Part shown: positions 40,228-48,905 of the stretch, in pieces
Layout of the letters: every line of letters begins with the position of its first letter
Position numbering within the stretch: the stretch's first letter is position 1
Assembly (NCBI RefSeq): GCF_016126015.1
Contig: NZ_JAEFDB010000001.1
Location: forward strand, 620,001 to 684,000
Direction: 5' to 3'
DNA: 64,000 nucleotides
Source: Capnocytophaga periodontitidis
GTDB taxonomy: Bacteria > Bacteroidota > Bacteroidia > Flavobacteriales > Flavobacteriaceae
Translations under genes and position numbers: made by a program
The notes under the pieces: model-generated
Database searches by the model: none
Seen by the model: only the letters and a program-made list of their open reading frames with translations
Told to the model about the DNA's origin: nothing

Positions 40228-40272
40228 ATTTCATTAGGTTATTCAACTTTTTTACACTACATTTGCCGCACT
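40228..40272 (+). promoter_or_regulatory. Promoter of the restriction island, left copy of a 45-bp direct repeat
   Basis: It contains the -7 box TACATTTG at 40258-40265. The whole 45 bp matches 48861-48905 at 39 of 45 positions by my alignment, far beyond the promoter consensus. It lies about 55 bp before the helicase start. Confidence 0.7.
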
Positions 40273-40323
40273 GTATAAAATAAAGACATCTTTATTTTAT
40301 ACAAAATATATAACAACTTGATT

Positions 40324-43300
40324 ATGAGTTCAAAGTTTTTTACCAATACTGAAGGGAATACCTTATTCAAAAAGTTTGAGGGTATTATTCAAGCAATGAA
40401 GCCAGCTGCTTTCAAAGCTGTTTCAGCTTATTTTCGTTCTTCAGGCTACTTCAAAATGCGTGAAATGCTAAAAGAAGTAGAAGAAGTTAAGATATTAGTG
40501 GGTATCAATGTAGATACTCTTATAGCTGATGCTCAAAAAAGAGGAATTCTCTACTTTAAAAATTCGGATAAAACTAAAGAAGAGTTTGAAAAGTGGTTTA
40601 TTGAGGATGTAAAAGAAGCTCAATACTCTAAAGAAGTAGAAGAAAGTATCTTGCAGTTTATTCAAGATATTGTAGATAAGCGTATTGAAGTAAGGGTACA
40701 CAATAGTCAATCTATTCATGCTAAATTTTATATTATTTTACCAAAAGAACATAGTGAATACACTGATGGTTGGGTAGTAATGGGCTCTTCTAATCTTACT
40801 GATGCAGGTATTGGTAGTAAAAAAGCTCCTAACTATGAATTGAATATAGCTTTAAAGGACTTTGATGATGTAGAATTTGCAAAAAAAGAGTTTGATAAAC
40901 TATGGGAAGACTCTGATGTATTACTTCCTGCTGATGTAGAAGGACTAATTAAGAAAACTTATATTGGACAAGCGTTTACTCCTTTTGAAATATTTATAAA
41001 ACTACTTATAGAGTATTTTGGAAAAAATATTGATTACGATCCTAATACAGTGGGTGACTTGCCTTCAACCTACAAAAAGTTAAGTTATCAAATAGATGCT
41101 GTAAACCAAGGATTTGACATGCTACAAAAACACAATGGTTTTTTCTTAGCTGATGTGGTTGGATTAGGAAAAACAGTTATAGCCTCGATGATAGCTAAAC
41201 GTTTTTGTATAGCCAATGGTTTTGCACAAACTAAAATATTAGTAGTTACTCCTCCAGCAGTAGAAAAGAGCTGGAAGCAAACTTTTAGAGATTTTAGGTT
41301 AGATAAGAATACTAAGTTTATTACCAATGGTAGTCTCAATAAAATAGTAGATGAAAAAGATTTGGATAACTATTGGGAAATAGATGAATATGATTTAATT
41401 TTAGTAGATGAAGCGCATAAATACCGCAATCATAGATCGCAAGGTTTTGATTACTTACAACGAATTTGTAAAACCCCACGAAAAGCTGAAGGACTTATAG
41501 AGGGAGATAAGAAAAAAGTAATACTTATTTCAGCGACCCCTCTTAATAACCGTCCGGAAGATCTTTATTATCAAGTACAACTATTCCAAGATATTCGTAC
41601 AAGTACTTTGGAAAAAGTAAATAATTTGCAAAACTTCTTTGCTCCATTGATTCGTGAATACAAAGATATTATGAATACTACCACTCCTGATATGGGAAAA
41701 GTAAGGAATATCTATAAGCAAATTCGTGAAAAAGTAATAGCTGAGATTACAGTGCGCAGGACACGAAAAGACCTTAAGAAATATCCTAAATATTTAGATG
41801 ATTTAAAAGACCAAGGTATTATTTTCCCTGAAATTGCACCTTTACAAACTATCGAATACCAATTTGATATTCCTCTTGGTAGATTGTTTTATGATACAAT
41901 ATTTAACTTAACAAATGATGATAAAATAGGTTATTATCGTTATCAGGCTATTCGCTTTTTGAACAAAGAGATACAAGAAAAATACTATGAAAAAGCTGAA
42001 TTAGTATCTCAATCGTTAGCGGGTATTATGAAAACTTTAATGGTGAAGCGTTTGGAAAGTAGTTTTGTAGCATTTAAGAAAACATTAGAGAACTTATTAA
42101 AATCAACCCAACGGATGATTGAAATGTTTGAAAATGACAGAGTTTATATTGCGCCTGACTTAAATATCAACACTCTATATGAAAAAGGTTTTTCGGAAGA
42201 GGAAATAGAAGAGATAATCCTTCAGAAAAATGCAAAAAATGCAAGAAATAATATCTTTTCGGCAGATGATTTTGATCCTGCTCTCTTAGAAGGATTAAAA
42301 AAAGATGCAAGTTCACTGAAAACACTTTTTGAAAAATGGGAAAAAATAAAGAATGACCCTAAAATAGATAAGTTATTTAGTATTCTAAATAGTACTTTAC
42401 TTGATAAAGAAAAGAATCCTTCACAACAGTTAATTATTTTTACTGAAAGTAATGATACAGCTGATTATTTAACAGAAAAACTTTCAACTAAAATAGCTCC
42501 TAACAAAATATTGAAAGTTTCTTCAGAAAATAGAAGTAAAATATTTGATGATATTCAAGCTAACTTTGATGCTAACTATACAAAAGAGCGAAGAAATGAT
42601 TTGCAAATACTCATTACTACCGATGTGCTTGCTGAGGGTATCAACTTACATCGTGCTAATGTATTGTTAAATTATGATACCCCTTGGAATGCTACTAAGC
42701 TAATGCAACGCCTCGGACGTATCAACCGAATAGGAAGTGAATCAGGTATTGTATATAACTATATTTTTTACCCTTCAGCACAAGGTGATGAAGAAATAAA
42801 GTTGTACAAAAATGCTTATGTTAAACTGCAAGGTTTCCATTCTGCTTTTGGAGAAGATGCACAAGTATTCTCTAAAGAAGAATTAGTAGAACAATTTGAG
42901 CTTTTTAAAGAAGGAGGTGAAGGAGAAGAAGACAAACGTTTGCACTATCTGCGTTTTATTCGTGAATTTAAAGATAATAACCCTAAGGAATTTAAACGTA
43001 TTTCTAACATTCCTTTCAAAGCCCGTACAGCTCGTAAAAACGAAAACACTCCATTTGATGATGTAAAAAATGGTTCTATCATTTTTATGAAATCACCTTA
43101 TAAAAGTGAATTTTATAGAGTGAACGGAAAAGAAGAAATAGAAAGTATTGACTTTTTGGAAGCAGCCGAACGCTTCGAAGCTACTGTTTTGGAGAAAGGT
43201 TTTGAGGTGCCAGCATCTCATTATAAAGATGTAAATTTGGCACAAAGTAAGTTCGAAAACGATACCATACAAGCTAATATTGAAACTGTAACCCCGACTG

Positions 43301-43623
43301 ATAAAGCAGATGGAAATACAATGCAAGCTAAGAAATTCTTACGTGATATAAAAGGAACTTTAAATAACGAAGAACTAAAAATAGCTTGCGATCAGCTTAT
43401 CAAACTTATTGACAAAGGTACTTTTACAAATATACCTACTGATATAAAGAAGATAAGACAGCAGTTAGATAAACAAAAAATAACATTTGGAAATGCACAA
43501 CAACTTATTCTGAATTTAGCTAATAAATACGGAGTATCATCTTTTGATAGTATAAAAAATAATAAGGAAAAAGCATTGGATATATTACCCGAAATAGTAA
43601 TCACTGAAACATTTATTAAATAG
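40324..43623 (+). CDS. PLD-nuclease/SNF2-type helicase of a restriction system
   Basis: A 1099-aa fusion. The N-terminal part carries a phospholipase D-like nuclease signature: SIHAKFYIIL (HxK, about residue 131) followed by MGSSNLTDAG (about 155-165). The helicase has Walker A VVGLGKTVIAS (about 278), DEAH box LILVDEAHKYRN (about 361), motif III ISATPLNNRP (about 403) and motif VI QRLGRINRIG (about 795), an SNF2-like superfamily-2 translocase. The ATG at 40324 is preferred to a TTG two codons earlier. One base separates its stop from the methyltransferase start. Inferred role: ATP-dependent translocation and cleavage of unmodified DNA. DISARM DrmD is an alternative relative. Confidence 0.85.
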   Translation: MSSKFFTNTEGNTLFKKFEGIIQAMKPAAFKAVSAYFRSSGYFKMREMLKEVEEVKILVGINVDTLIADAQKRGILYFKNSDKTKEEFEKWFIEDVKEAQYSKEVEESILQFIQDIVDKRIEVRVHNSQSIHAKFYIILPKEHSEYTDGWVVMGSSNLTDAGIGSKKAPNYELNIALKDFDDVEFAKKEFDKLWEDSDVLLPADVEGLIKKTYIGQAFTPFEIFIKLLIEYFGKNIDYDPNTVGDLPSTYKKLSYQIDAVNQGFDMLQKHNGFFLADVVGLGKTVIASMIAKRFCIANGFAQTKILVVTPPAVEKSWKQTFRDFRLDKNTKFITNGSLNKIVDEKDLDNYWEIDEYDLILVDEAHKYRNHRSQGFDYLQRICKTPRKAEGLIEGDKKKVILISATPLNNRPEDLYYQVQLFQDIRTSTLEKVNNLQNFFAPLIREYKDIMNTTTPDMGKVRNIYKQIREKVIAEITVRRTRKDLKKYPKYLDDLKDQGIIFPEIAPLQTIEYQFDIPLGRLFYDTIFNLTNDDKIGYYRYQAIRFLNKEIQEKYYEKAELVSQSLAGIMKTLMVKRLESSFVAFKKTLENLLKSTQRMIEMFENDRVYIAPDLNINTLYEKGFSEEEIEEIILQKNAKNARNNIFSADDFDPALLEGLKKDASSLKTLFEKWEKIKNDPKIDKLFSILNSTLLDKEKNPSQQLIIFTESNDTADYLTEKLSTKIAPNKILKVSSENRSKIFDDIQANFDANYTKERRNDLQILITTDVLAEGINLHRANVLLNYDTPWNATKLMQRLGRINRIGSESGIVYNYIFYPSAQGDEEIKLYKNAYVKLQGFHSAFGEDAQVFSKEELVEQFELFKEGGEGEEDKRLHYLRFIREFKDNNPKEFKRISNIPFKARTARKNENTPFDDVKNGSIIFMKSPYKSEFYRVNGKEEIESIDFLEAAERFEATVLEKGFEVPASHYKDVNLAQSKFENDTIQANIETVTPTDKADGNTMQAKKFLRDIKGTLNNEELKIACDQLIKLIDKGTFTNIPTDIKKIRQQLDKQKITFGNAQQLILNLANKYGVSSFDSIKNNKEKALDILPEIVITETFIK

Positions 43624-43624
43624 T

Positions 43625-46600
43625 ATGAAAGATTTAATACAAATACTCTCATCTCCTTATCGTCAGGAAGATTGGATTAGCTTCTTGAAAGAACTTTTTG
43701 CTCATAATTCAGGTACAGGAGTTATATTGCAAAAACCTCAAAGAATAGAGCTTTCTAAAAGTGAAAAAGTGAAAGAAGCTTATGAATTAGGTAATTATGA
43801 AACTACCGAAGGGAGGCTTATTGGTATTTACCAAGTAAATATTAGTGAAGATATGTTGCTATATCGCAACAAAGTAGGACTTCGCCAATTGATGAAAAAT
43901 ATCTACAAATATAACGTAGATGGTGTGTTGGTAGTTTTTGTACAAGAAAATAAATGGCGATTGTCATATATTTCCGAAATTATAAAAGAAGTAGATGAGA
44001 AAGGTAAGATTATTAAGGAAATTACGAATGAAAAACGCTTTACTTACTTGTTAGGAGAAGGAGAAAAGACAAAAACAGCCACAGATAGACTTCAACTTTT
44101 AGTAGGAAAAGAACTTTCGTTAGAAGATTTTAAAAATGCCTTCGCAGTAGAGGCACTTAATAATGATTTCTTTGATAGATATAAGGATATCTATGAAGAT
44201 TTTGTACAACATATTACAGGAGTTCGTTATGAAATGGATAAAAAAACAAAAAAATATATTGAGATAAAGAAACACGAACCACACCCTAATTTTGATGGTT
44301 ATAAGAACTATAAAGATTATCCTATGCCACATCCTGATAGTGAAACACAACCTTTTAAAAATAAGGAATATCCTAATCTTTTTAATGGAAATAAAAAAGC
44401 TGTTCGTGATTTTGTAAAACGAATGATGGGACGGATTGTCTTTTTGTACTTTATACAAAAGAAAGGCTGGTTAGCAGTACCTAAGGGTAAAAATTGGGGA
44501 GAAGGTAATTATGATTATTTATGCCAATTGTATAAAGAAACACCTAAAGAAGACCAACCTTATTTTTATGAAAAACGTTTGTTACCATTATTTTTTGAAT
44601 GTTTTACAGATAAAAAGTCAGAGAGTGAAACAAATAACTTGCGTTTCCCTTATCTTAATGGAGGGTTATTTGATAAAACACAAGACCAACACTTTGATAA
44701 GGTAAATTTGCCTTACTCTATTTTTACTGAACTTTTTGATACCTTTAACTCCTACAACTTTACCGTCTATGAAGATGCTCCTAATGAACATACTGTAGCT
44801 GTAGACCCTGAGATGCTAGGGCATATCTTTGAAAATCTTTTGGAAGATAATAAGGATAAGGGGGCTTTCTATACCCCTAAAGAAATTGTACATTATATGT
44901 GTAAAGAAAGTCTAAAAACCTTTTTACTTTCTAAAATAGTTTCAGATAATAATCAATCAGAAAAAGCAAAAGATGTTATTACAAAAATAATAGAGCATCA
45001 ACCCCTTAATGAAGAGGAAAGAAAATATATAAAAGAAAAAGGGAATGTTATTACTACCTCTTTAGAAAACGTAAAAATATGTGACCCTGCTATTGGGTCT
45101 GGAGCCTTCCCTATGGGACTTTTGCAAGAAATATACTATATCAAAATTACCTTGCAACAATTAGGAGTGACAACAGAACAGACCGATGCTCAGATTAAAA
45201 AACATATCATTGAGCAAAATATCTATGGAGTTGATATTGATGCAGGTGCAGTAGACATAGCCCGCTTGCGCTTTTGGTTAAGTTTGGTAGTAGATGAACA
45301 ACTTCCACAGCCACTTCCAAACTTAGACTTTAAGATTATGCAAGGAAATAGCTTGTTAGAAAGCTATCACGGAGTAGATCTGAGTAACCTTTTACAGGAT
45401 AATAACAATTTAATGCTTGTTGAAAATGCACAAAAAGACCTATTTGGGAACTATGTAGAACCACAACTTAGAATAACCTTTACCAAAAAAGACTTTACTG
45501 AAAGCTTGCAACAAGATATCAAAAAATATTTTAGTATTACAGATGCTGAAACAAAGAAGAGTTTAAAAAAACAAATTAACAACAAAATACAGGAGCATAT
45601 AGATTATAATTTGGAGTTGCGTAGAAATCATTTGGAAAGATTAAAGTTAGAAATTACTCCTAAATATAAAAATACTACTTTGACTCTTAAGCAAGAAAGA
45701 GAAAAAGAATCCTTAGAGCAGGAGATAGCAAAATTAGATATAAGCCGTAAGGAAATAATAAAACTACAAGAAACAGATGAAAAACCTTTTTTTTTGTGGC
45801 ATATATATTTTGCTGATGTATTTAAAGGGGCAAATAATTTAGACAATTCTGGGTTTGACATTGTTATTGGGAACCCACCATATGGAGCTAAACTTTCACA
45901 AGAAGACAAAGAGGTTTTAAAGAAGAAATATATATCAGCTCAAACCATTAAAGGAATACAGAAAGGTTCATTAGATACGTATACACTCTTTATTGAATTA
46001 GGCTATAACCTATTGAAAAAAGGAGGAAATTTAGGTTTTATAGTGCCTATATCTATTACATCAAGTGAAGCTGTAACAGGAATTCATAAACTATTAAGAA
46101 ATAATTGTAGAGCAATAAAGCTATCCTCTTATGCGGTTCGTCCTAAACCTGTTTTTGAAAATGCAATGGTAAATACTTCCATTATTCAATATGTGAAAAC
46201 AAATACACCTTGTGAGAGTATTTTATCTACTAAAATGTATAGAAGAGGAAAAAACTTTAATCTTGAACAGCTTATCAATAACTTAGAATTTGTTGAAACA
46301 AAAGATCTAATGTTATTAGGGCGTATTCCAAAAATCAGCTATAATATAGAAAGAAATATTTTAACAAAAATACTCAATCAAAAAACTATATCTAAATATC
46401 TATCAGAGAAAGGAAGTCCTATATATTATAGAGCTGCAGGAGGAAGATATTTTAAAGTTGTCACAAATTATTCAACAGGTTCTTCTGCTGAAAAAATGCT
46501 ATTATTTTCTTCTAAATTATCTAATTCTATTGGAGGAATACTAAGTAGTAATCTTTCTTTTTGGTTTTATCAGATTTATTCTGACAATCTTAATTGGAAA

Positions 46601-46894
46601 AGTTATGAAATAGAGAATTTTACAATACCCTATCTTAATGATAAAGATATTGTAGCATTAGAAAAACTTTATCAAAAATACTTAGCTGATATAGAAAATA
46701 ATGCTAAGAATAGGACTGTAACAGAAGATTCAAGCTATCATATCAGTGAATTTAAGGAATATAAAATTCAGAAATCAAAGCACATCATAGACCAAATAGA
46801 TGATCTTATTTGCCCTTTGTATGGTCTTACACAAGAGGAAATAGATTTTATAAAAAACTATGAAATTGAATTTAGACTATCTGATAATGATTAA
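43625..46894 (+). CDS. Eco57I-class DNA adenine methyltransferase with invertible C-terminal specificity half
   Basis: A 1089-aa protein. The AdoMet motif I is CDPAIGSGAFPMGLLQEI (about residues 487-504) and the catalytic motif IV is GFDIVIGNPPYG (about 741-752), the NPPY signature of N6-adenine methyltransferases. Residues 1-380 or so are a large N-terminal region of uncertain function, without an obvious PD-(D/E)xK motif. The C-terminal 337 residues form the target-recognition region, ending IDQIDDLICPLYGLTQEEID. The DNA encoding residues 735-752 is repeated in inverted orientation at 48093-48144, so the recognition half can be exchanged with the silent cassette. Inferred role: modifies host DNA and sets sequence specificity for the helicase-nuclease partner. 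Confidence 0.9.
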   Translation: MKDLIQILSSPYRQEDWISFLKELFAHNSGTGVILQKPQRIELSKSEKVKEAYELGNYETTEGRLIGIYQVNISEDMLLYRNKVGLRQLMKNIYKYNVDGVLVVFVQENKWRLSYISEIIKEVDEKGKIIKEITNEKRFTYLLGEGEKTKTATDRLQLLVGKELSLEDFKNAFAVEALNNDFFDRYKDIYEDFVQHITGVRYEMDKKTKKYIEIKKHEPHPNFDGYKNYKDYPMPHPDSETQPFKNKEYPNLFNGNKKAVRDFVKRMMGRIVFLYFIQKKGWLAVPKGKNWGEGNYDYLCQLYKETPKEDQPYFYEKRLLPLFFECFTDKKSESETNNLRFPYLNGGLFDKTQDQHFDKVNLPYSIFTELFDTFNSYNFTVYEDAPNEHTVAVDPEMLGHIFENLLEDNKDKGAFYTPKEIVHYMCKESLKTFLLSKIVSDNNQSEKAKDVITKIIEHQPLNEEERKYIKEKGNVITTSLENVKICDPAIGSGAFPMGLLQEIYYIKITLQQLGVTTEQTDAQIKKHIIEQNIYGVDIDAGAVDIARLRFWLSLVVDEQLPQPLPNLDFKIMQGNSLLESYHGVDLSNLLQDNNNLMLVENAQKDLFGNYVEPQLRITFTKKDFTESLQQDIKKYFSITDAETKKSLKKQINNKIQEHIDYNLELRRNHLERLKLEITPKYKNTTLTLKQEREKESLEQEIAKLDISRKEIIKLQETDEKPFFLWHIYFADVFKGANNLDNSGFDIVIGNPPYGAKLSQEDKEVLKKKYISAQTIKGIQKGSLDTYTLFIELGYNLLKKGGNLGFIVPISITSSEAVTGIHKLLRNNCRAIKLSSYAVRPKPVFENAMVNTSIIQYVKTNTPCESILSTKMYRRGKNFNLEQLINNLEFVETKDLMLLGRIPKISYNIERNILTKILNQKTISKYLSEKGSPIYYRAAGGRYFKVVTNYSTGSSAEKMLLFSSKLSNSIGGILSSNLSFWFYQIYSDNLNWKSYEIENFTIPYLNDKDIVALEKLYQKYLADIENNAKNRTVTEDSSYHISEFKEYKIQKSKHIIDQIDDLICPLYGLTQEEIDFIKNYEIEFRLSDND
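45828..45879 (+). repeat. Inverted repeat, expressed copy (52 bp)
   Basis: Identical over 52 bp to the reverse complement of 48093-48144. The next base differs (A here, G there, a silent third position) and six more bases then match. It encodes ANNLDNSGFDIVIGNPP. A 26-bp stretch at 45851-45876, with GGGTT/AACCC ends and a GT centre, has the size and symmetry of a serine-invertase crossover site (inference). Confidence 0.95.
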
Positions 46895-46926
46895 CAAAAA
46901 AGTGAGTTTTTTAACTCACTTTTTTG
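46895..46926 (+). terminator. Bidirectional terminator between expressed gene and silent cassette
   Basis: AAAAAAGTGAGTT and AACTCACTTTTTT form a perfect 13-bp stem with a TTTT loop, with A and T runs on either side so that it can act in both directions. The stop codon of the silent cassette (46916-46918) lies inside it. Either orientation of the invertible segment therefore ends its message here. Confidence 0.85.
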
Positions 46927-48151
46927 TTTCATATTCTTCTTTTGATATAATACTTTCAATATTAGGATCTATTACTTTTAGCTCTTCATACGTTAGGTTA
47001 TAAAGTTTATAGACTAAGATATCTATTTGGTTTTCTATATTTGTAATATCAGCTTTAGGATTCTCTCTTTTTGCCTTAATAGCCTCATTTACTAAATTAA
47101 CAATAGGAGATTGATTCTCAGAAATAATAATAGATAAAGGTCTTAGTTTTTCTAATTTTACTTGAGGGAATACTTTTCCTGTTTCTCTTACATTATTTTC
47201 ATATAGATACCTTAAGTATTTAGAATTTAATAAACCACAAAGATATTCATATGACACTCTATTAATAAAAGAATCTTTTATAATTCCTGCTTGAATACTT
47301 CGTCCAAACCAAATGCCTATATAATCTATTGTACAAATAGGATATTGAGCTGTCTGTCTCCAAATAAGTTTAGGAATTATTTTAAAATATTTTCTATTTA
47401 AAATGACTCTTTCATTTTCATTGAGTTTAATATCATTTCTTACAAAACGGTTTGTATTTTCTATGATATAATAGGCATTAATATCTTCTCCTTTCCAAAA
47501 TTCCTTATCACTTTCAGTTTCTTTTTCTCCTTTATATAAAAGACGTTTTGATAAATCTGATTTCCCTTTATCAGATAATCCCACATTTACTCTTTGATAG
47601 TTAATTCCTGCATCTTTTAGCTCCATTATCTCGCCTAAAGAATACTCATTTTCTGCTTTTCTCCTAATGTTCATGCCAAATATATTGCTATCAGTATCGT
47701 TAAAAGTTGTTTGTTCTATCTCTGAGAAAACTATTTTATCAAATGAACCTAAAAATTTTGAGTTTGTAGAAAGGTCTGCTATTTTTATTTTACTGCTTTC
47801 TTTTTTCTTTTCAAGAATTATAATAGCAGTAGAAACTACAGCATTATTAAACACATTTTCACCTAAATTAATGATTATATTCAAATCATATTGTAATAAA
47901 AATTTGCGTAAATCTTTATATCTTGGTTGTAATAAATATGTATTAGGAGTGATATAAGCTAATATACCTTTTTTATTTAAAAGCTCTATTCCTTTTTGAA
48001 AAAATATTTTATATATTTCAGTAAAACTCTTAGTAGTTTCAGGATATATTTTTTTTAATATAGGAACCCATTTATCAATGTCAGATCCATACGGTGGGTT
48101 CCCAATAACAATGTCAAACCCAGAATTGTCTAAATTATTTGCCCTAAATAC
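46916..48151 (-). CDS. Silent alternative C-terminal cassette of the methyltransferase
   Basis: The minus-strand frame is open for 411 codons, from just after a TAG at 48152-48154. It begins with the sequence shared with the expressed gene (ANNLDNSGFDIVIGNPPYG) and continues into a different recognition half (SDIDKWVPILKKIYPETTKS, then GIELLNKKGILAYITPNTYL and GENVFNNAVVSTAIIILEKK), ending in KEEYETKK. It has no start codon before NPPY, no ribosome-binding site and no promoter box, so it should be silent as it stands; a caller may use TTG 47884 and report 322 aa. Inversion at the repeats would place 408 of its residues after residue 735 of the methyltransferase, in frame. Confidence 0.88.
   Translation of the reverse strand, partial: VFRANNLDNSGFDIVIGNPPYGSDIDKWVPILKKIYPETTKSFTEIYKIFFQKGIELLNKKGILAYITPNTYLLQPRYKDLRKFLLQYDLNIIINLGENVFNNAVVSTAIIILEKKKESSKIKIADLSTNSKFLGSFDKIVFSEIEQTTFNDTDSNIFGMNIRRKAENEYSLGEIMELKDAGINYQRVNVGLSDKGKSDLSKRLLYKGEKETESDKEFWKGEDINAYYIIENTNRFVRNDIKLNENERVILNRKYFKIIPKLIWRQTAQYPICTIDYIGIWFGRSIQAGIIKDSFINRVSYEYLCGLLNSKYLRYLYENNVRETGKVFPQVKLEKLRPLSIIISENQSPIVNLVNEAIKAKRENPKADITNIENQIDILVYKLYNLTYEELKVIDPNIESIISKEEYETKK
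48093..48144 (-). repeat. Inverted repeat, silent copy (52 bp)
   Basis: The reverse complement of 45828-45879, with no mismatch over 52 bp. Upstream similarity continues weakly as GTATTT with a 3-bp deletion. The candidate 26-bp crossover site is 48096-48121. The perfect identity next to wholly different downstream sequence is what recombination between the two copies would maintain. Confidence 0.95.
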
Positions 48152-48254: not shown

Positions 48255-48848
48255 ATGATTTATGGATATATTCGGGTAAGTTCCGATAAGCAAACAGTAG
48301 AAAACCAACGTTTTGAAATTAGTAATTTCTGTGAGAAAAACAGCCTAACTATTGATGTTTGGGTAGAAGAAACTATTTCGGGTATGACAAGAGTAGAGAA
48401 TAGAAAACTCGGCAAACTCCTTAAAAGAATGAAAAAAGGCGATGTGCTTATTTGCTCAGAATTGTCGCGTTTGGGGCGTAACCTCTTGATGATTATGGGG
48501 GTACTTAATGAGTGTATGAACCGCGATATTCAGGTGTGGACAATTAAAGATAATTACCGCTTGGGGAGTGATATCAATAGCAAGGTGTTGGCGTTTGCCT
48601 TTGGGCTATCTGCTGAGATTGAACGTAACCTTATCAGTCAGCGTACCAAAGAGGCGTTGGCACGCAAGAAAGCAGAGGGAGTAGTTCTCGGTCGCCCTAA
48701 AGGTAGTAAGTCCGCTAAAACGAAACTCACAGGGCAAGAAAAGAAAATTAAGGAACTTTTAGAGAAAAAAGTATCGTATTCGACTATTGGGCGTATTCTT
48801 GGGGTGCATAGGCTTACAGTAAGTACTTTTGTAAAAGAACGATTATAA
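48255..48848 (+). CDS. Serine site-specific invertase, Mpi family
   Basis: A 197-aa small serine recombinase. The N-terminus MIYGYIRVSSDKQTVENQRF carries the catalytic serine (Ser9 or Ser10). The active-site arginines are in SELSRLGRNLLMIM (about residues 74-87). The long E-helix AFAFGLSAEIERNLISQRTK leads to a C-terminal helix-turn-helix (SYSTIGRILGVHRLTVSTFV). Sequence and length match the Bacteroidota Mpi invertase, which inverts capsule promoters in Bacteroides. It lies 111 bp outside the inverted repeat, so inversion does not disturb it. Inferred role: inversion of the methyltransferase cassette, possibly together with sites elsewhere in the genome. Confidence 0.93.
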   Translation: MIYGYIRVSSDKQTVENQRFEISNFCEKNSLTIDVWVEETISGMTRVENRKLGKLLKRMKKGDVLICSELSRLGRNLLMIMGVLNECMNRDIQVWTIKDNYRLGSDINSKVLAFAFGLSAEIERNLISQRTKEALARKKAEGVVLGRPKGSKSAKTKLTGQEKKIKELLEKKVSYSTIGRILGVHRLTVSTFVKERL

Positions 48849-48860
48849 ATGTATTATCCG

Positions 48861-48905
48861 ATTTTATTAGGCTTTTCAACTTTTTTATAATACATTTGCA
48901 GCACT
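48861..48905 (+). promoter_or_regulatory. Promoter, right copy of the 45-bp direct repeat
   Basis: It contains TACATTTG at 48891-48898, 31 bp before the SGNH gene start. It resembles the island promoter at 40228-40272 at 39 of 45 positions, so the same sequence borders the restriction island on both sides. Confidence 0.7.

Follow-up and report, generated by a model that had tools for sequence, protein, structure and literature searches.

The 64,000-nucleotide stretch of Capnocytophaga periodontitidis DNA considered in this work (contig NZ_JAEFDB010000001.1, positions 620,001 to 684,000; hereafter the window) carries a predicted helicase-linked restriction-modification (R-M) locus, in which the C-terminal half of an Eco57I-class methyltransferase lies next to a silent, oppositely oriented alternative. 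As judged from the sequence, the segment holding the two halves very likely undergoes inversion.

Methyltransferase halves and the inverted coding repeat

The locus consists, in order, of a PLD-SNF2 helicase gene, the methyltransferase gene, a 21-nt gap with a hairpin, the silent half on the minus strand, and a serine recombinase gene on the plus strand. The methyltransferase gene (43625-46894, plus strand; 1089 amino acids, aa) begins with an ATG located one base past the helicase stop codon. Its constant N-terminal part (43625..45827, plus strand), recognized by Eco57I/N6_Mtase domains, an AlphaFold2 model, and PDB matches, is composed of a beta-rich N-terminal domain and the S-adenosylmethionine-binding part. 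The C-terminal half in the expressed position, named TRD1 (TRD, target recognition domain; 45832..46894, plus strand), comprises the remaining methyltransferase fold and the target recognition region. The silent alternative C-terminal half, TRD2 (46916..48142, minus strand), is open over 408 codons and has no start codon at its 5' end. It lies tail-to-tail with the expressed gene, as the original prediction, made from the sequence letters, had described. In the open reading frame list, where the start is the first ATG/GTG/TTG after a stop, the TRD2 frame begins only at an internal TTG (322 aa). TRD2 matches the TaqI_C specificity domain and the terminal part of the Eco57I domain; TRD1 has no Pfam TaqI_C match, and an alignment of the two halves over 321 codons gives 33.6% identity. 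A structural report places target recognition in the C-terminal half of related enzymes (PMC11341690), and PDB matches of the AlphaFold2 model of the window methyltransferase place it in the same half of relatives. It had been claimed that only the specificity half changes. This is correct in that the C-terminal half is swapped, but the methyltransferase fold after motif IV lies in the swapped half and would move too, and for this reason that half is not pure specificity.

The two halves are linked by an inverted repeat, whose left arm (45828..45889, plus strand) lies over the GFDIVIGNPPY motif and whose right arm is at 48083..48144 on the minus strand. The arms are 62 nt long and 97% complementary, their first 52 bases (45828-45879) are identical, and both encode ANNLDNSGFDIVIGNPP in the methyltransferase frame. 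When the 3.23 Mb genome was searched with 81 bases around the left arm, only the two arm positions matched. An identity of 52 bases is far beyond chance, and a chance repeat was ruled out on the basis of this identity, the retained frame, and the restriction to two genome positions. Scripted inversion of the segment converts the 1089-aa methyltransferase into one of 1143 aa with no stop, that is, an intact enzyme, and a shift of the junction register by 1 or 2 bases introduces a stop within 3-5 codons. The perfect 52-bp repeat with its coordinates, its same-frame coding in both copies, and the lengths of both products, all of them claimed beforehand, are borne out by these results. The locus has the layout of a gene-altering programmed inversion, with inverted repeats inside a gene and an opposite-facing silent partial copy, and in-silico inversion yields an alternative open product. 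A simple dyad scan for a crossover core gave no clear common core in the window repeat.

The earlier account of the locus had its layout right and left out two features, the adjacent serine recombinase and the hairpin between the stop codons. The hairpin (46893..46928; -19 kcal/mol, z -8.2) covers the 21-nt gap separating the tail-to-tail stop codons, one of its sides being rich in A and the opposite side in T. It is listed by the hairpin scan on the plus strand only, is given here with no strand assigned, and is likely a bidirectional terminator. Promoter-like sites around the silent half number 13, compared to 11.7 expected from shuffling, so no statement is possible on a promoter at this half.

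The N-terminal domain of the methyltransferase (residues 1-205, 43625-44239) has a confident predicted fold, with a predicted local distance difference test (pLDDT) value of 89.6, and its invariant residues include G56, R112, T134, K137, G144, and T151; its model has no PDB match at E <= 0.001. Between the window and the sister species genome G023, the helicases are 97% identical and methyltransferase residues 1-579 about 93% identical. Residues 580-735 (about 45370-45827), located just before the repeat, differ strongly between the two genomes and, judging from this divergence, are possibly another exchanged segment.

The upstream partner is a 1101-aa protein (40318..43623, plus strand) with a PLD (HKD) nuclease-like part and an SNF2 helicase (Pfam PLDc_2, SNF2-rel_dom, Helicase_C), whose likely start is an ATG two codons past the listed TTG. 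It matches the PADLOC model C3a139 'HKD+Snf2' with an E value of 5.8e-44. Of 77 helicases compared, 56, including that of the window, carry the PLD pattern HxK...GSxN in their N-terminal region, and we infer that this partner is the likely nuclease of the system. The whole restriction island is flanked by 45-nt direct repeats (87%) at 40228-40272 and 48861-48905, which may mark its insertion; these repeats resemble Bacteroidota promoters (TAnnTTTG).

The adjacent recombinase and its association with the repeats

The gene beside the silent half (48255..48848, plus strand) encodes a 197-aa serine recombinase (PF00239, E 1.8e-33), which carries YIRVS and SELSRLGR motifs and scores 350 bits against NF009949 ('master DNA invertase Mpi family'), passing the curated cut-off of 272. 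By these sequence features, it is likely the invertase of the segment.

The association between this recombinase and the repeats was assessed in 61 of 95 loci; L079 and L112 were dropped for having no in-frame NPPY, and 32 more for having less than 3 kb downstream. A recombinase was counted as present if it showed at least 50% identity within 8 kb, which was the case in 14 of the 61 loci. In 11 of these 14 loci, and in 0 of the 47 without a recombinase, the C-terminal half shares an inverted repeat with DNA farther downstream (Fisher p 9e-10, uncorrected for phylogeny). For the loci from the contig scan alone, which covered the best 80 of at least 395 further relatives, the repeat was found in 4 of 6 loci with the recombinase and in 0 of 42 without it (p 8e-5, again uncorrected for phylogeny). 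From the opposite direction, 16 loci were selected in other genomes by the recombinase alone; a methyltransferase adjoins 11 of them, 4 are located at contig ends, and neither applies to the remaining one, L157. One of these 16, L135, appears to come from the same genome as L109 (their TRDs are 100% identical) and is outside the 61-locus test.

Such counts also bear on another route, namely RecA-dependent homologous recombination between the repeats, with the recombinase being incidental or acting elsewhere. Inverted repeats of such length can recombine homologously at a low rate, and two Mpi-family paralogues (70% and 66%) occur elsewhere in the window's genome, with no such methyltransferase seen beside them; both points count for this route. 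Against it stand the occurrence of the inverted repeats, among the 61 loci, exclusively in those that carry the subfamily recombinase (11 of 14), and the methyltransferase neighbors of 11 of the 16 loci that were picked by the recombinase alone. We consider homologous recombination a very improbable explanation, and the Mpi-family recombinase would be the enzyme acting on the segment.

Several further observations concern the recombinase genes themselves. In four loci they lie at, or up to about 0.5 kb from, contig ends (L153:29-766, L155:22-813, L158:9542-10198, and L161:8685-9308), as expected if assemblies break at rearranging cassettes. In the window's genome, L117:7789-9169 (G000:C1:473866-475150) holds tandem Mpi-family recombinase genes within an element that also has a phage-type integrase, an HNH protein, and a DnaG-like primase. 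One of the L117 recombinases is 85% identical to that of Prevotella nigrescens, with no methyltransferase of the family seen adjoining.

Related loci and the proposed switch

A match to the system was found in 7 of 20 genomes examined in the window's genus. Of the 8 loci there, 6 have inverted repeats between the methyltransferase and downstream DNA (the window, L014, L028, L029, L031, and L032), L027 has no repeat of this kind, and L030 ends at the contig edge. When 10 arm pairs from 9 loci were inverted in silico, the enzyme frame stayed open every time, with products of 999-1149 aa.

Natural inversion of a homologous locus was observed between two other genomes. The P. nigrescens recombinase was searched in 399 genomes of the family of genome G534 (taken as Bacteroidaceae), and a close match (E <= 1e-90) was found in 11, two of which, belonging to different genera, hold L151 and L152. 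From the helicase to the methyltransferase NPPY repeat, these loci are collinear and 99.7% identical at the nucleotide level; the block of three halves between the NPPY repeat and the recombinase-side repeat is inverted, and collinearity resumes over the recombinase and the DNA beyond it (95% and 91%). Scripted reversal of the inversion restores one alignment of 13,594 bases with 94.9% identity. The half expressed in L151 is silent in L152 (99.8% DNA identity); its replacement has 87% identity between the two loci.

The comparison of 26 C-terminal halves from 14 loci showed that the same families occur in both states. Members of the TRD1 family occupy the expressed position of the window, L014, L029, and L046 and are silent halves of L028, L012, and L102; in either state they recur from genus to genus, with identities of about 50-99%. 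Another family supplies the expressed half of L080 as well as silent halves of L012 and L046. Window TRD1 and the silent half of L028 (genome G299) share 97% aa identity, in loci whose constant methyltransferase parts are 53% and helicases 44% identical, and the ratio of nonsynonymous to synonymous substitution rates (dN/dS) for this pair is 0.057 (NG86) or 0.047 (YN00). TRD2, silent in both the window and L014 (G023), is 94% identical between them, with dN/dS of 0.29 (NG86) or 0.22 (YN00) and dS of 0.085. By these substitution ratios, the silent halves are under purifying selection, a sign that they are used.

These data also allow us to weigh a static partial duplication, in which the silent half would be a pseudogene produced by duplication or homologous recombination, and the repeat would be a conserved coding motif rather than an active site. 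In favor of such a view, the window genome displays one orientation and G023 expresses the same kind of half, the repeat does cover a conserved coding motif, and L027 illustrates that such loci can exist with no silent half. On the other side, the silent half is open and constrained, the frame is kept at every arm pair, repeats accompany the recombinase, L151 and L152 differ by a natural inversion, and halves occur in both states. A static duplication is thus highly unlikely, and the candidate of an inert pseudogene was rejected on the grounds of purifying selection, the frame kept on inversion, and the L151/L152 inversion.

A further alternative accepts inversion but supposes that the halves recognize the same or overlapping motifs, or that one form is inactive, which would make the locus an on/off device rather than one changing specificity. 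The Pfam TaqI_C match confined to TRD2 counts for it. The low overall identity of two halves that are both open and constrained, together with the C-terminal position of target recognition in structures of relatives (PMC11341690), counts against it, and we judge it improbable. TRD1 and TRD2 presumably recognize different motifs.

The reading that we hold to be probable is that site-specific DNA inversion switches a helicase-linked R-M system between two states of target specificity. In the proposed mechanism, the Mpi-family serine recombinase (48255-48848) would recombine the inverted coding repeats at the GFDIVIGNPPY motif, and the 2.3-kb segment would flip in the window's species. Either TRD1 (1089-aa enzyme) or TRD2 (1143-aa enzyme) would be fused in frame to the constant N-terminal part; homology predicts that the methylation motif would change and the nuclease would be retargeted. 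Again by homology, the PLD-SNF2 helicase would restrict DNA lacking the current mark, and a flip would change both the epigenome and the defence target.

A number of points weigh against this reading. The opposite orientation that was expected in related genomes was found in L151/L152, but these loci have three sites, and in helicase and constant methyltransferase part they share just 33-36% identity with the window. The window's species is represented by a single assembly with one orientation, and in the sister species G023 a half of the same kind is expressed. The recombinase/repeat association is uncorrected for phylogeny, and 3 of the 14 recombinase-bearing loci depart from it: L027 has no silent half, L080 has a strong long repeat only between its two silent halves, and L096 has a 42-nt repeat of 88%. 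Subfamily recombinases also occur with no such methyltransferase beside them, in L157 and in the tandem pair of L117. The dN/dS of silent TRD2 (0.29) exceeds that of the helicase (0.071), and TRD1, expressed in both the window and L014 and far more diverged between them, has a dN/dS of 0.44 (NG86). Finally, the strict PLD pattern is not present in 21 of 77 helicases, including those of the cassette-bearing L012, L029, L046, L080, L096, L109, and L111, which makes the restriction role of the partner unsure.

One silent half is 60% identical between Prevotella denticola and Treponema berlinense. This match, the spread of the TRD1 family, and the 97% identity of TRD1 between the window and L028, whose other parts are far less alike, support a more speculative reading that we consider less likely than not. 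In it, the loci would be receptacles for interchangeable specificity halves that move between restriction systems, genera, and classes, in an integron-like trade of which inversion would be the local read-out. Such a pool would span the window's lineage, Prevotella, Bacteroidaceae, and Treponema, and its exchange would rely on a single subfamily of recombinases acting at a coding site conserved over the catalytic motif. Exact copies of the repeat patterns gave 0 matches in viral contigs, and the 7 phage records found each had less than 60% identity.

Other loci vary the arrangement. Inverted repeats downstream of NPPY, inside the target-recognition half, are present in L109:12294-14131, L111:12135-14130, L031:3646-6660, and L032:9503-12502 (e.g., 314-322 nt, or perfect repeats of 29-34 nt), with the same recombinase subfamily, and form a second swap point. 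In L027 (G314:C1), where the helicase is almost unchanged (99%) and the recombinase is more distant (72%), the C-terminal half is a different one and lacks a silent counterpart; this locus is perhaps a locked or reduced form.

In P. nigrescens FDAARGOS_1486, one expressed and two silent halves are present. Three circular 'plasmids' of P. nigrescens DSM 13386 (NZ_CP133466, NZ_CP133467, and NZ_CP133468; L116, L011, and L010; 2697, 2697, and 2630 bases) are cassette segments, 100% identical to FDAARGOS_1486 segments, and their ends lie inside the repeats at unequal places. Their origin as excised circles was rejected: the 2697-base segment lies between inverted sites and cannot be yielded by simple site-specific excision, and 2630 bases misfit the spacing of roughly 2611 bases between the direct sites in L012 (12806 to 15417). 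Given the unequal ends and the length misfit, we do not take these records for real plasmids or as evidence of circles, but for pieces that an assembler could not place because the locus rearranges; as a sign of rearrangement they are suggestive only. The cassette block also includes an AAA_14/DUF4143 ATPase gene (L012:12805-14064), which is flanked by two silent halves and would be carried along with the block.

Relation to known invertible systems

If the switch operates as proposed, one clone would contain cells with two methylomes and two anti-phage targets, and a phage bearing one mark would still be resisted by the cells in the other state. As a single chain both methylates and recognizes its target, one flip would change protection and attack together. 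Searching for the recombinase together with the repeat would be a straightforward means of detecting such systems, and clones locked in one orientation would allow direct tests of how a methylation switch affects gene expression and phage resistance. The naturally swapped halves would also represent interchangeable specificity modules for the methyltransferase fold.

Invertible hsdS genes are known from Streptococcus pneumoniae, Streptococcus suis, and Bacteroides fragilis. In phase-variable Type I R-M systems, inverted repeats lie in the hsdS coding sequence, as described in several papers (PMC4948785, PMC7394358, PMC10790761, PMC5903667). As in the window, target recognition regions are swapped there between expressed and silent copies. 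The Type I inversion, however, alters a separate S subunit, whereas in the window methylation and recognition share one chain, and the repeat on the catalytic NPPY motif and the Mpi-family serine invertase are unlike the Type I hsdS arrangement; the pneumococcal recombinase PsrA is a tyrosine recombinase, according to PMC7096588. Membership in Type I was rejected given the single Eco57I-class chain, the PLD-SNF2 partner, and no HsdS or HsdR among the window proteins scanned (8 and 6).

The best Foldseek match of the window methyltransferase is PglX/BrxX of bacteriophage exclusion (BREX) systems, over the full length and with a low TM-score. Membership in BREX was rejected, as the hidden Markov model match to the curated PglX model is weak (66.7 bits against a cut-off of 500); the partner in the window is a PLD-SNF2 helicase, and no PglZ or other BREX protein is among the 8 window proteins scanned. 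Phase variation of PglX is reported (PMC9122589). BREX loci in which a recombinase accompanies truncated pglX copies in inverted orientation have been described as well. DISARM membership was likewise rejected, since the helicase reaches 156.8 bits against DrmD (NF038317), with a cut-off of 610. MmeI and other Type IIG-IIL enzymes carry the nuclease in the enzyme chain; the window chain has the methyltransferase and TRD, but at the N-terminal nuclease position, across 34 sequences, no acidic residue is invariant or 90% conserved (no Asp/Glu before residue 175).

The recombinase belongs to the same family as Mpi of B. fragilis, a master DNA invertase that flips promoters. In the window, a coding segment would flip instead, and the recombinase is encoded beside it. 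Milman, Yelin, and Kishony, writing in Nucleic Acids Research in 2023, reportedly used long reads and added Type II R-M systems, as a new family, to those subject to programmed inversions, and their Type II cases may already include relatives of the window locus. A partial literature search found no report of an invertible Type II or IIG target region. The novelty claimed in the original prediction, which made the comparison with Type I hsdS only, was overstated in view of the Type II and PglX cases. The principle of inversion is already known; the helicase link, an invertase of the Mpi family, a crossover placed over the catalytic motif, and the sharing of halves among genera and classes make the locus a variant worth describing.

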